Shown here in pieces: positions 37,828-45,855 of a stretch of 46,116 bases of DNA (position 1 is its first letter; every line of letters starts with the position of its first letter). Source of the DNA: Synergistaceae bacterium (lineage in GTDB: Bacteria; Synergistota; Synergistia; Synergistales; Aminobacteriaceae); NCBI GenBank assembly GCA_017451025.1, contig JAFSSM010000054.1, forward strand, positions 1-46,116. Reading direction: 5' to 3'. The notes beneath the pieces are model-generated. The model ran no database searches, had not been told where the DNA came from, and was given only the letters and a program-made list of their open reading frames with translations. A program made the translations under genes and the position numbers.

Positions 37828-38133
37828 TTAAATAAATACCCCCCCCCCGATAATTTTACGTATTGACGCAGATTCTTCCGGATTGCTGGAATTATCGGCG
37901 ACAAGATAAACATACGGACGCTGAAAATATTTCTGAAGCCTGCTCATTTGCTGGGATATTACCTCTGAATTGTTGAACGCTACAGTTAAGATACACAGCT
38001 CCGCATTGATGATTTTCTCAACATTAAAGCTGTCCAGTGCGTCCATTTTGTAGAATTTTTCCTCAGCATTACTCAATAAGTGCCGGTGCACCCTTCTTTT
38101 CAATCCGGCAACATAACCGCGAATCATGCTCAT
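37828..38133 (-). CDS. Phase-OFF glycosyltransferase, N-terminal part
   Basis: 101 residues starting at ATG 38133 behind AGAGGAGG. After a basic leader it has the start of a family 2-like glycosyltransferase (AELCILTVAFNNSEVISQQM, YVYLVADNSSNPEESA), then reaches the G10 tract and ends in an out-of-frame VFI and stop. In the present state the product is truncated before the DxD motif. It lies between a PTS terminator and the flavin reductase. It probably acts on a surface glycan or flagellin; the acceptor is unknown. Confidence 0.78.
   Translation of the reverse strand: MSMIRGYVAGLKRRVHRHLLSNAEEKFYKMDALDSFNVEKIINAELCILTVAFNNSEVISQQMSRLQKYFQRPYVYLVADNSSNPEESASIRKIIGGGVFI
37839..37848. repeat. 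C10 homopolymer (G10 in the glycosyltransferase coding strand)
   Basis: Ten consecutive C on the plus strand lie inside the glycosyltransferase frame. Ten G puts the frame out; eleven or eight restores it. Long G/C tracts are classic slippage sites. Confidence 0.95.
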
Positions 38134-42037: not shown

Positions 42038-43377
42038 TTCACCGCTCACATAACATTGACATGCTTCACGGTTCCCTTCTCGACAAGATACTAATCTTTG
42101 CCCTGCCCTTAGCCGCCAGCATGATGCTTCAGCAGCTCTTCAACTCCGCAGACGTTGCCGTAGTCGGACGCTTCGACTCTCCCCAGGCAATGGCCGCAGT
42201 CGGCAGCAACGGAGCCGCAATCAACCTCATGATTAACCTATTCGTGGGACTCTCGATCGGCGCAAACGTCATTGTTGCCCGCTGTATCGGCAGAAACGAA
42301 AAGGCCGGGATTCACGACGCAGTTCATACAGCTATAGCACTGGCACTTATCGGCGGAGTGATTCTCGTTGCGTGGGGCCTGGCTATGGCGCGCACAATCT
42401 TGACCATGATGGACACACCCGACGACATAATCGAGCTTGCGGTTGTGTACTTCAGAATATATTTCTTGGGAGCACCGTTCATCATGCTCTACAATTTCGG
42501 TGCGGCGATTCTCAGGAGCAAGGGCGACAGCAGAAGGCCGTTAATCTCTCTTGCGGCGGGCGGCATCATCAACGTAATCCTCAACCTGATATTCGTCGTG
42601 GGCTTCAGGTTAAGCGTCGTGGGAGTTGCGCTTGCTACGGTAATCTCCAACGTGATCAGCTCCTTGATGATTATGCGCTGGCTGATGAGCGAGGAAGCAC
42701 CCTTCACCTTCCGGCCAAGTGAACTTATGCTCGGAAAAAGCTACGTAATCGAAATTCTGAAGGTCGGACTCCCTGCCGGAATACAAGGCTCCCTGTTCTC
42801 AATCTCGAACGTTTGCATTCAGACAGCCATCAACCGGATCGGCTCTTATGCTTCGGCGGGAAGTGCTGCTGCGCTGAACTATGACTTCATCGTGTACTAC
42901 ATAGTTGCGGCGTTCACTCAGGCGGCGGTAACTTTCACGTCCCAGAATTTCGGCGCGGGGAACTACAAGCGTTGCGACAGGGTATTTGCTGTGAGTATGT
43001 GCGCGGGCGTGGGTTTTACGGGGCTTGCGTGCCTTGTGTGCTACGTGTGGTGCACTCCGCTACTGAGCTTCTACACGGTCAGCCCTGAAGTCCTGAGCTA
43101 CGGAGAGATCCGAATGATTCACGTTGTGGCGTTCCTGTGGATGACGAACATCTACGAGATTAGCGGGGGATGCCTGCGCGGAATGGGACACTCAACGCTT
43201 CCGTCTGTGATGGTGCTGCTAGGGTGCTGTGCGTTGAGGATAGTGTGGGTGTACACGGTTTTTGCGGCACACCACGACTTCACTACGCTGATGAATGTTT
43301 ACCCTCTGTCTTGGCTGATAACGAGCATAGGGACTCTTCTTGCGTACTACATAATCAGGAAGAAGAGGTTTGCATAA
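42034..43377 (+). CDS. MATE-family efflux transporter
   Basis: 447 residues, the usual MATE length, with twelve membrane segments in two halves: ILIFALPLAASMMLQQLFNSADVAVVGRF at the start, GLSIGANVIVARCIGRNEK, and the second-half VGLPAGIQGSLFSISNVCIQTAINRIG and FTSQNFGAGNYKR. It exports drugs or metabolites using Na+ or H+. ATG 42034 overlaps the NYN stop; a longer frame lies inside that gene. The stop codon TAA at 43375 is the first part of the sigma-28-type promoter for the flagellin locus. Confidence 0.94.
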   Translation: MIHRSHNIDMLHGSLLDKILIFALPLAASMMLQQLFNSADVAVVGRFDSPQAMAAVGSNGAAINLMINLFVGLSIGANVIVARCIGRNEKAGIHDAVHTAIALALIGGVILVAWGLAMARTILTMMDTPDDIIELAVVYFRIYFLGAPFIMLYNFGAAILRSKGDSRRPLISLAAGGIINVILNLIFVVGFRLSVVGVALATVISNVISSLMIMRWLMSEEAPFTFRPSELMLGKSYVIEILKVGLPAGIQGSLFSISNVCIQTAINRIGSYASAGSAAALNYDFIVYYIVAAFTQAAVTFTSQNFGAGNYKRCDRVFAVSMCAGVGFTGLACLVCYVWCTPLLSFYTVSPEVLSYGEIRMIHVVAFLWMTNIYEISGGCLRGMGHSTLPSVMVLLGCCALRIVWVYTVFAAHHDFTTLMNVYPLSWLITSIGTLLAYYIIRKKRFA

Positions 43378-43402
43378 AGTGGATATAGACTGCCTCCGAT
43401 AA
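43375..43402 (+). promoter_or_regulatory. Sigma-28 (FliA)-type flagellin promoter
   Basis: TAAAGT at 43375-43380 and CCGATAA at 43396-43402 match the flagellar sigma-28 consensus (TAAA, then about 16 bases, CCGATAA); the gap here is 17. It lies immediately upstream of the leader peptide and flagellin, and overlaps the MATE stop codon. Confidence 0.75.
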
Positions 43403-43436
43403 TTAAATAACCCAAAATTTCAGGAGGCTTTCTTTC

Positions 43437-43517
43437 ATGGACGTAGTACGTAATTTGCGTAAAGGGGGGGGGGGCTACACAAGTAGCTCTGCTCTCCTAG
43501 AAGGAGGGTTATTATGA
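43437..43517 (+). CDS. Flagellin leader peptide containing a G11 tract
   Basis: 26 residues (MDVVRNLRKGGGGYTSSSAL, then LEGGLL), with AGGAGG 9 bases before ATG 43437. Its TGA overlaps the flagellin ATG as ATGA (43514-43517). With 11 G the leader frame runs through the hairpin that hides the flagellin ribosome site and ends on the flagellin start. With 12 G it would stop at TAG 43484-43486, before the hairpin; with 10 G at the TAG 43498-43500 inside it. It is too short for automatic gene calling. The strong ribosome site, position behind a sigma-28 promoter and exact overlap argue that it is translated and couples flagellin expression to the tract length. Confidence 0.65.
   Translation: MDVVRNLRKGGGGYTSSSALLEGGLL
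43464..43474. repeat. G11 homopolymer in the flagellin leader
   Basis: Eleven consecutive G on the plus strand, inside the leader peptide frame (codons 10-13). Tracts this long slip readily during replication. Confidence 0.95.
43492..43508 (+). promoter_or_regulatory. Hairpin sequestering the flagellin ribosome binding site
   Basis: CTCTCCT (43492-43498) can pair with AGGAGGG (43502-43508) across a three-base loop, with one T-G pair, hiding the whole AGGAGG that serves ATG 43514. Ribosomes reading the leader would open it. Confidence 0.6.
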
Positions 43518-45292
43518 GGATTCTCAATAATCTTCCTGCACTTCATGCATTCACATCACTGAATAAAACCAACAAAGCACTTCAGAAGACCATCAATGCT
43601 CTATCAACTGGGTTGCGCATAAATTCTTCCGCCGATGACGCTGCGGGATTTGCGATAAGCGAGAGGATGCGTTCGCAGATTTCGGGGCTTGATGTTGCGG
43701 TCAGGAACACTCAGGACGGAATAAGCCTGCTTCAGACAGCCGAAGGGGCACTTGGCCAGACGAACAGTATGCTACAGCGAATGATGGAGCTAGCGATTCA
43801 GGCGAGCAGTGATTCGCTGACGAGCCAGGACAGGAGTTATCTTCAGCTGGAGATTGACGAACTGAAGGACCAGATTGACAGGATTGCGGGAACGACGCAG
43901 TTCAACAAGAAGCGTATTTTGGACGGGAGTAGTGGGGCGTTGTGGTCGAGCGATGACCTGAACGTTAAGGCGAAGATTCACGGAGGGCTGGTAACTGTTG
44001 ATGAGTTCGGACAGAAGGTGAACCACGAGGGGAATTTCCGGATCGAGGTTAGTGCTGAGCCTGGATTGCCGCAGGTGCAGAAGAGCAATATCATGCACTT
44101 TACCGAAACAATAACTTCTGTTGAGAACATTATTACTGAAGTGGATCCGCCTACATCAACCGCTCGTGTCGTATTTGTGATTGATGTATCTGGGTCTATG
44201 GGCGGCGAACTCCAGAAGGTCAAGGATAATATTGCCTCCTTCAAGAGCAAAATTGAAGCTGGCGGAGTAGATAGTGTCGAAATCGGAATATGTACATATG
44301 GCACTAATGATGCGTATGATCCAAATTTTGTAGCATACACATACCCAGATGGTTCTTTATGGTCGTCCGATACTAGTGCAATTACAACTCTACTAGAACC
44401 GGTAACTGCTCCCTATGGTTGGGATACGTATAATTATTATGCTGTCCAGAAAGCCGCAGAAACATACAATGATTCCTACGGCACTAACCGTTATATGATT
44501 CTTGTAACAGATGTAGATCACACATATGGTGAAGGTTGGACTGCTCCAATCGGTTCTAAGGAAATATATACGGAAGCTACTCTTAGGTCAGCACTTGAAA
44601 GCGATCCCACAACAGATAAAGATAATATAAAACTTTCTGTAATCTCCCCTAATCCTGATAGAACTTCGGAATTCTATAACTTAGTTAGTGATTCTGGAGG
44701 CAGTATGCTTATGGCAGGGACTGACTGGAGCGATGACCTTAATGTTCTGGCTGATGATATAGCAGAGACCACAGAAACCGATAAAATCATAGATAATGTC
44801 GCGGAATCGTCATTCTCCACTATTGGCAGTATGTCTGCTTTCTATAATGTGAACGGTGTATCTTTAGTCTCTAAGCCTCAAACCCTCACCATCACTCAGG
44901 GAAACGGCAACTCTACTTCCGTCACTCTCTACGAGACCGATACTCTCCAAGACGTAGCCGACAAAATTAACTCAGCAATTGCCGACGGACTCGGTCAGGC
45001 CAAGTACACCAACAACCGCGAAAAATTCTGCACAATATCCGACGGCACAGAAGGTACTTCTGAATCCGTCTACGACCGTCAGCCCATATACGACTCCTAC
45101 GGCAACATCATAGGCTACGATGTCTACGCAACCATGCTCGTACGTTCCGCAATACCCGGCAAAGACGGCGAACTCTACACTTCTCCGGCGATGACGACCT
45201 CCTCCGTGCACTCGGCCTCAACACAATTCAAGAGTCCACCGAATCCACATTCACCGCCTCTGTCTACAACGCTCACTCCGGAAAAATCGTAA
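43514..45292 (+). CDS. Flagellin with inserted von Willebrand factor A domain (N-terminal part)
   Basis: 592 codons in this frame. Residues 1 to about 145 are a normal flagellin D0/D1 domain (STGLRINSSADDAAGFAISERM, NTQDGISLLQTAEGAL, FNKKRILDGS). Residues about 218-430 are a VWA domain: VVFVIDVSGSMGGE with MIDAS D224, S226 and S228, a threonine region ICTYGTND and an acidic VTDVDHTYG. Then flagellin-type sequence resumes (LTITQGNGN, LYETDTLQDVADKINSAI). The frame is lost near 45176-45181 and the rest of this frame is out-of-frame tail. The C-terminal flagellin domain is in the next entry. The VWA region is AT-rich (21 G+C of 60 at 44281-44340) compared with the flanks (33 of 60 at 43681-43740; 35 of 60 at 45361-45420), as if recently acquired. 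Confidence 0.88.
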   Translation: MRILNNLPALHAFTSLNKTNKALQKTINALSTGLRINSSADDAAGFAISERMRSQISGLDVAVRNTQDGISLLQTAEGALGQTNSMLQRMMELAIQASSDSLTSQDRSYLQLEIDELKDQIDRIAGTTQFNKKRILDGSSGALWSSDDLNVKAKIHGGLVTVDEFGQKVNHEGNFRIEVSAEPGLPQVQKSNIMHFTETITSVENIITEVDPPTSTARVVFVIDVSGSMGGELQKVKDNIASFKSKIEAGGVDSVEIGICTYGTNDAYDPNFVAYTYPDGSLWSSDTSAITTLLEPVTAPYGWDTYNYYAVQKAAETYNDSYGTNRYMILVTDVDHTYGEGWTAPIGSKEIYTEATLRSALESDPTTDKDNIKLSVISPNPDRTSEFYNLVSDSGGSMLMAGTDWSDDLNVLADDIAETTETDKIIDNVAESSFSTIGSMSAFYNVNGVSLVSKPQTLTITQGNGNSTSVTLYETDTLQDVADKINSAIADGLGQAKYTNNREKFCTISDGTEGTSESVYDRQPIYDSYGNIIGYDVYATMLVRSAIPGKDGELYTSPAMTTSSVHSASTQFKSPPNPHSPPLSTTLTPEKS

Positions 45293-45855
45293 CCTCAAAC
45301 GCAAAAGCTACCGGCCAAGAATTTGTGAGCCTCATTCCTCCCGAAATCGACATCGAGGTTGACGCAATGGCCGGACTCGCCGCAAATTGGGACGAGAACA
45401 CCAGGCAATTCATGATGGCCACCAAAAACGTCTACACCGCAATGCTCCACCTCAAGAACAACGGCACAATCTTCCAGACCGGCGGAAACATGGGCGAGGA
45501 CTTCATGATTGATCTCGGCGACTCTTCCTGCGACGCACTCAACCTCTCCCGCGTGAATGTCGTTACCCGCGAGACAGCCTCCCGCTCAATCGGCATACTT
45601 GACCGTGCGATTCACGCCATAGCCTCACAGCGAGCGAAGATAGGCTCATACGAAAATGCACTCGACCGCACAATGGAGAACCTGACGATTACCAGCACCA
45701 ACCTGACCGACGCAGACTCCAGAATACGCGACCTCGATATGGCCTCAACCATGATGGACTTCGTGCGCCTGCAAATCCTGAACCAGTCGGGTACGTCAAT
45801 GCTTGCGCAGGCTAACCAGATGCCCAATTCTGTGCTAAGTCTTCTGCAGGGGTAA
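45181..45855 (+). CDS. Flagellin C-terminal domain, frameshifted from the preceding part
   Basis: The frame from 45181 to TAA at 45855 reads FSGDDDLLRALGLNTIQEST, hook-region sequence, and then the C-terminal D1/D0 flagellin helices (TASRSIGILDRAIHAIASQRAKIGSYENALDRT, TNLTDADSRIRDLDMASTMM, and the end SMLAQANQMPNSVLSLLQG). These are needed for filament assembly. The first ATG in frame is not preceded by a ribosome site, so this is the end of the upstream flagellin gene. Reading TACAC at 45176-45180 as TAC (removing one AC) joins the two frames as GELYFSGDDD. It may be a mutation, an assembly error, or another switch. Confidence 0.82.
   Translation, partial: FSGDDDLLRALGLNTIQESTESTFTASVYNAHSGKIVTSNAKATGQEFVSLIPPEIDIEVDAMAGLAANWDENTRQFMMATKNVYTAMLHLKNNGTIFQTGGNMGEDFMIDLGDSSCDALNLSRVNVVTRETASRSIGILDRAIHAIASQRAKIGSYENALDRTMENLTITSTNLTDADSRIRDLDMASTMMDFVRLQILNQSGTSMLAQANQMPNSVLSLLQG

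Follow-up and report, generated by a model that had tools for sequence, protein, structure and literature searches.

Homopolymer switches that lie in promoter spacers are known from Bordetella fim and from Neisseria porA and opc. Campylobacter carries poly-G tracts within genes, where slippage shifts the reading frame and one frame is productive (PMC6321876, PMC11955535), and in Helicobacter pylori the sRNA RepG reads a G repeat of variable length that lies in the untranslated leader of tlpB, with repeat length affecting output post-transcriptionally (PMC8295292). Translational coupling between overlapping or closely spaced ORFs is well established, and at 4-nt overlaps it is general in bacteria (PMC12548453). 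Here, we describe a locus from a genus of uncultured Synergistaceae of the ruminant gut at which a slippery G tract within a short leader peptide probably gates an accessory flagellin by phase-variable, translationally coupled control, as judged by comparison of sequences. The window (the whole stretch of DNA that was analysed, 46,116 nt) is one whole contig of a 2.35-Mb draft genome; the features of the locus, and the tract lengths at homologous loci, are collected in Table 1.

Table 1. Features of the flagellin locus in the window, and number of G at each tract locus of the genus (genome and locus handles).
Feature	Position	Strand	Remarks
Sigma-28-type (flagellar) promoter, TAAAG...TCCGATAA	43375..43402	+	TAAAG 43375-43379, TCCGATAA 43395-43402, spacer 15-16 nt
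Leader ribosome-binding site, AGGAGG	43422..43427	+	Similar site before leader ATG in relatives
Leader ORF, 26 codons, MDVVRNLRKGGGGYTSSSALLEGGLL	43437..43517	+	Stop TGA overlaps flagellin start
TACGTAA DNA preface	43447..43453	+	Common to many G tracts of the window's genome
G11 tract, putative length-variable switch	43464..43474	+	8-13 G at homologous loci
Predicted hairpin over flagellin ribosome site	43491..43509	+	Arms 43491-43498 / 43502-43509; not better than shuffles across the set
Flagellin ribosome-binding site, AGGAGG	43502..43507	+	
ATGA overlap, leader stop/flagellin start	43514..43517	+	Frame ending there open in 11/13 loci
Accessory flagellin, N-terminal part, 592 aa	43514..45292	+	von Willebrand A domain ~44168-44731
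C-terminal part of the same flagellin, other frame	45193..45855	+	Flagellin_C by Pfam
Tract loci, number of G			Window 11; G008 L054 13; G009 L102 8; G039 L064 8; G019 L040 12
Tract loci, number of G			G005 L045 9; G005 L425 10; G020 L059 8; G021 L341 10
Tract loci, number of G			G013 L335 9; G036 L334 9 (upstream cut at contig end); G042 L333 9; G007 L405 9

The original prediction, made from the window alone, had named a sigma-28-type promoter, a strong leader ribosome site, a 26-codon leader, a G11 tract and an ATGA overlap, and all of these were found again where it had placed them. The leader TGA (43515-43517) overlaps the flagellin ATG (43514-43516), and no G/C run in the window exceeds the G11 at 43464-43474, the next longest being a C10 at 37839. 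The window leader reaches the ATGA only with 11 G (or with 3 fewer or 3 more); it stops at a TAG at 43498-43500 with 10 G and at a TAG at 43484-43486 with 12 G, giving three different ends for 10, 11 and 12 G and bearing out the claim that 10 or 12 G would end the leader early and at different places (stops at 43500 and 43486, respectively). The -10 element of the sigma-28-like promoter ends at 43402 and the tract begins at 43464, about 60 nt downstream and inside the leader ORF, a position that rules out a promoter role for the leader tract.

This position also sets the locus apart from the promoter-spacer switches of Bordetella and Neisseria, with which it shares a homopolymer upstream of a gene for a surface structure. 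As in the Campylobacter genes, a G tract of 8-13 would slip the frame with one frame productive; here, however, the shifted frame is that of a separate leader peptide, and the flagellin coding sequence is without a tract and would be controlled only through its start. With tlpB the locus shares a motility-related gene whose mRNA leader contains a variable G repeat, the length of which would here also act on output post-transcriptionally, whereas the repeat described here lies in a putative SD-led ORF with a conserved post-tract frame. The 4-nt ATGA overlap, with the downstream ribosome site inside the upstream ORF, matches described stop/start coupling (PMC12548453), but the upstream ORF is in this case a short leader with a hypermutable tract, and mutation would switch the coupling. 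In a partial search of the literature, covering few subscription papers, no published case of a phase-variable leader peptide coupled to a downstream start was found, and a partial search likewise returned no comparable switch for this family of gut bacteria. If the reading given here is true, it would add a placement of a repeat besides the promoter and the gene itself, namely a disposable leader peptide whose frame sets coupled translation. Such placement could permit graded, and not only on/off, output, with the sequence of the surface protein unaltered; flagellin is both a motility organ and an immune target.

Flagellins were located in 43 genomes of the genus (one assembly per species), and their upstream regions were checked for tracts of at least 7 G; because some flagellins escaped the regular expressions by which starts were placed, totals per class are incomplete. 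A tract of G8-G13 was found upstream of a flagellin at 13 loci in 12 of the 43 genomes, with the proviso that tract length in any single assembly can be wrong. At every locus whose upstream sequence is complete, a leader runs into the tract from an ATG preceded by a ribosome site comparable to that of the window. A sigma-28-like promoter precedes the leader in 8 of the 9 loci with enough sequence by pattern, and in the ninth (G005) by eye, while shuffled upstream sequences give this promoter pattern in about 0-1%. None of the 7 other flagellin-like loci in the window's genome has an upstream G tract of at least 7. An invariant tract among relatives would have spoken against a switch; lengths instead vary from 8 to 13 G across the 13 homologous loci, and the leader, ribosome site and overlap proposed for the window recur before the relatives' flagellins, with the ATGA frame open in 11 of 13 and the start overrun in the other two. 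A pattern search of 183 genomes of the order, requiring an MR/MK-type start, matched flagellin starts in this genus only, and the layout was found in no further class among the flagellins located and, with that pattern, in none of the other genera of the order; two more pattern matches, in G148 and G168, do not read like flagellin starts. A plasmid collection gave no match. Records with matching tract contexts are labelled Synergistaceae, Synergistales or Fretibacterium sp., several of them from goat rumen, other stomach compartments and red deer.

The frame between tract and flagellin was compared with shuffled spacers. In 11 of 13 loci no stop interrupts the frame that ends at the ATGA between the tract and the start of the flagellin, where ~5 loci would be expected (P about 0.0006); the count is 8 of 10 (P 0.005-0.006) when each close pair is represented by a single locus. 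All 13 have at least one frame that crosses the flagellin start (P 0.005-0.009). Of 273 codons in the ATGA frame, 5 are stops, compared with 47 of 564 codons in the remaining two frames (P 7e-5). The two exceptions, G019 and G013, have leaders that overrun the flagellin start by 17 and 11 nt, respectively, rather than ending at the ATGA, and the non-crossing frames stop 13-104 nt before the start. The tract as assembled is in the crossing frame at 3 loci (the window, L335 and L425) and out of frame at 9 loci, and a frame that is kept and yet unused by most assemblies is the expected trace of a moving tract under selection. At the level of sequence, these counts demonstrate selection on the post-tract frame.

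Leaders were also found on flagellins that have no tract. At least four accessory flagellins without a tract (those in G026, G017, G002 and G025) have an SD-led leader ending exactly at the ATGA, where shuffling predicts 0.19; among 36 core MRIYHN flagellins there is no SD-led leader that ends at an ATGA. A fifth tract-less leader, in G022, has a weaker ribosome site, that of G007 L050 overruns the start by 14 nt, and some accessory flagellins have no leader at all. In a tree of 125 flagellin N-termini, which rests on few columns and has many open forks, leader-bearing flagellins, with or without a tract, all fall among the accessory flagellins, most of them within a group of 24 that is weakly resolved and four within a further, small group; neither group falls with the core MRIYHN class or with the main MVI class. 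Sister flagellins differ in the presence of the tract (G020 and G007; G008 and G030). Since the tree places leaders with and without a tract together, and sisters differ, the coupled leader may be older than its tract.

In the proposed mechanism, the flagellar sigma factor would transcribe the leader from the sigma-28-type promoter, and ribosomes would load on the leader at its ribosome site. Slippage would alter the number of G and reset the leader frame after the tract, a change seen so far as variation between species. In one length class of three, the ribosome would read over the flagellin ribosome site and stop on the flagellin start (at the ATGA in most species), and the flagellin would be translated by coupling, through re-initiation and/or unfolding of its ribosome site; in the other classes, translation would stop 13-104 nt short of the start, and flagellin would be reduced or absent, low or graded. 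The outcome would be a random, heritable, on/off or graded output of one accessory flagellin, with the other flagellins outside this control. We infer the size and direction of the effect of tract length on flagellin.

The original prediction had also made a 7-bp hairpin over the flagellin ribosome site a part of the switch. These 7 bp are contained in a predicted hairpin of 8 bp, including 2 G-U, which buries the AGGAGG at 43502-43507 only if the fold is begun after the tract. In a fold extended over the tract and 30 nt upstream of it, the flagellin ribosome site of the window has a predicted unpaired fraction of 77%. In folds begun after the tract, the leader loci as a group are more paired at the ribosome site than all other flagellins (P 0.002), and this pairing is not above that of their own shuffles (P = 0.13) or of accessory flagellins without a tract (P = 0.38). 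When the tract is included, it is predicted to take the pyrimidine arm, and the ribosome site is predicted to be freer in several leader loci. The hairpin can thus be drawn in the window, but its conservation is not supported by folding and shuffles, and it is predicted to be out-competed by the G tract; these models leave it a possible functional part. Re-initiation at the overlap is possible without a hairpin (PMC12548453).

The flagellin at the window locus has a VWA domain in its variable middle (Pfam VWA, E 9e-8), and this region has weak similarity in L102 of G009, a relative that also has a poly-G leader. The reading frame of the window flagellin changes near 45177-45190, separating the N- and C-terminal domains by either a real mutation or an assembly error; both parts are one frame in L102, and as assembled the window protein would end at 592 aa without its C-terminal domain. 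At L405 (G007) and L425 (G005), the gene behind the leader is also damaged as assembled. Just past the flagellin, the contig end (46010-46116) resembles by eye the start of a 16S rRNA gene.

The leader tract is one of many. The window's genome has 66 tracts of at least 8 G, many of which lie within long frames, as do those of phase-variable genes. TACGTAA (at most 1 mismatch) starts 14-18 nt before 21 of the 59 tracts of at least 9 G in this genome (0.75 expected), and the exact TACGTAA pattern precedes a G run in 17 of the genus's 43 genomes; the pattern in reverse, used as a control, matched once. These sites lie in various reading frames, between genes and in leaders (in one frame in the window and G008, in another in G005), and the differing frames and positions between genes mark the preface as a feature of DNA and not of a peptide. 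Among the 13 flagellin loci, 6 have no TACGTAA just before the tract (G009, G039, G020, G013, G042 and G007). The idea of a tract private to the flagellin switch gives way to membership in a genome-wide set of G tracts that share an upstream DNA motif. Through the shared preface, one can test whether the sites of hypermutable runs can be set by the bacterium itself.

This wide distribution of tracts raises the possibility that G tracts arise at TACGTAA-type sites across the genome and that one of them landed before a flagellin without regulatory effect. The preface, a DNA-level motif that accompanies tracts of unrelated genes in more than one frame as well as intergenic tracts, would fit such an origin, as would a window flagellin that is broken as assembled. 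The post-tract frame is nevertheless kept, leaders with or without a tract are confined to accessory flagellins, and the tract stands without TACGTAA just before it at nearly half of the loci (6/13), all of which make an idle tract quite improbable. Chance alone is ruled out by the shuffles for both the post-tract frame and the tract-less leaders, and an assembly artefact is unlikely as a full explanation for a layout that occurs in 12 genomes.

A tract could otherwise act on the flagellin as RNA, without a reading frame, if it paired with a C/U-rich sRNA or with the C/U-rich stretch that precedes the flagellin's ribosome site, its length tuning access to that site. H. pylori tlpB and RepG provide a precedent, and the folds in which the tract takes the pyrimidine arm and frees the ribosome site at several loci agree with it, but neither an ATG that has a ribosome site, nor the openness of the post-tract frame, nor leaders that end at the ATGA without a tract would be explained by it, and we regard it as unlikely. 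Because the post-tract frame is kept, a reading of the tlpB/RepG type is disfavoured as the main one. The same sequence facts would be accommodated if the leader were translated and the tract were still a frame switch, with early stops causing premature termination of transcription, Rho-dependent or otherwise; polarity following an early stop is a general phenomenon (PMC12548453), yet the untranslated gap would be short (13-104 nt) and the exact ATGA ends of most loci would not be needed, so that we give polarity very little weight. The length-dependent, coupled leader first proposed for the window, its hairpin apart, is instead strengthened by the comparison, in which the promoter, leader, tract of 8-13 G and ATGA frame recur and tract-less leaders end at the ATGA.

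We consider it possible, although doubtful, that the G tracts of the genus make up a single family of hypermutable elements, set within genes, within leader peptides and close to the ends of genes ahead of ATGA overlaps, whose conserved preface recruits or reflects a dedicated process that makes or maintains G runs; the flagellin leader would then be one use of a general contingency system specified by sequence. The C10 at 37839-37848 is a second poly-G with a TACGTAA preface (37856-37862) in the window, on the minus strand, in a coding frame (37828-38133) that seems to resume in another phase past the C10, as in an in-gene phase-variable gene. In some sugar-metabolism genes, a G tract occupies the final codons, immediately ahead of an ATGA overlap with the gene that follows: this is so in an epimerase pair (L413), in cytidylyltransferase genes (L135) and, within the window's genome, in a ribulose-phosphate-epimerase gene (L126), whose downstream frame is short as assembled. 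One frame reaches the ATGA overlap at L135, L413 and L126, and, judged by its layout, this is the leader arrangement with a full gene replacing the leader. At seven further loci (L416, L417, L418, L419, L406, L407 and L412), G tracts lie between TTGACA-like and TATAAT-like elements, and the products of the genes behind them mostly begin like exported proteins; these are likely promoter-spacer switches in the same genus. Matches to TACGTAA followed by G in termite-gut Planctomycetaceae were set aside as a separate case. One such MAG, Ct408_bin98 (JAIRTV01, L165-L264), has at least 18 copies of a G12-G14 tract at gene starts, and the products of these tract-bearing genes have a pseudopilin-like N-terminus.
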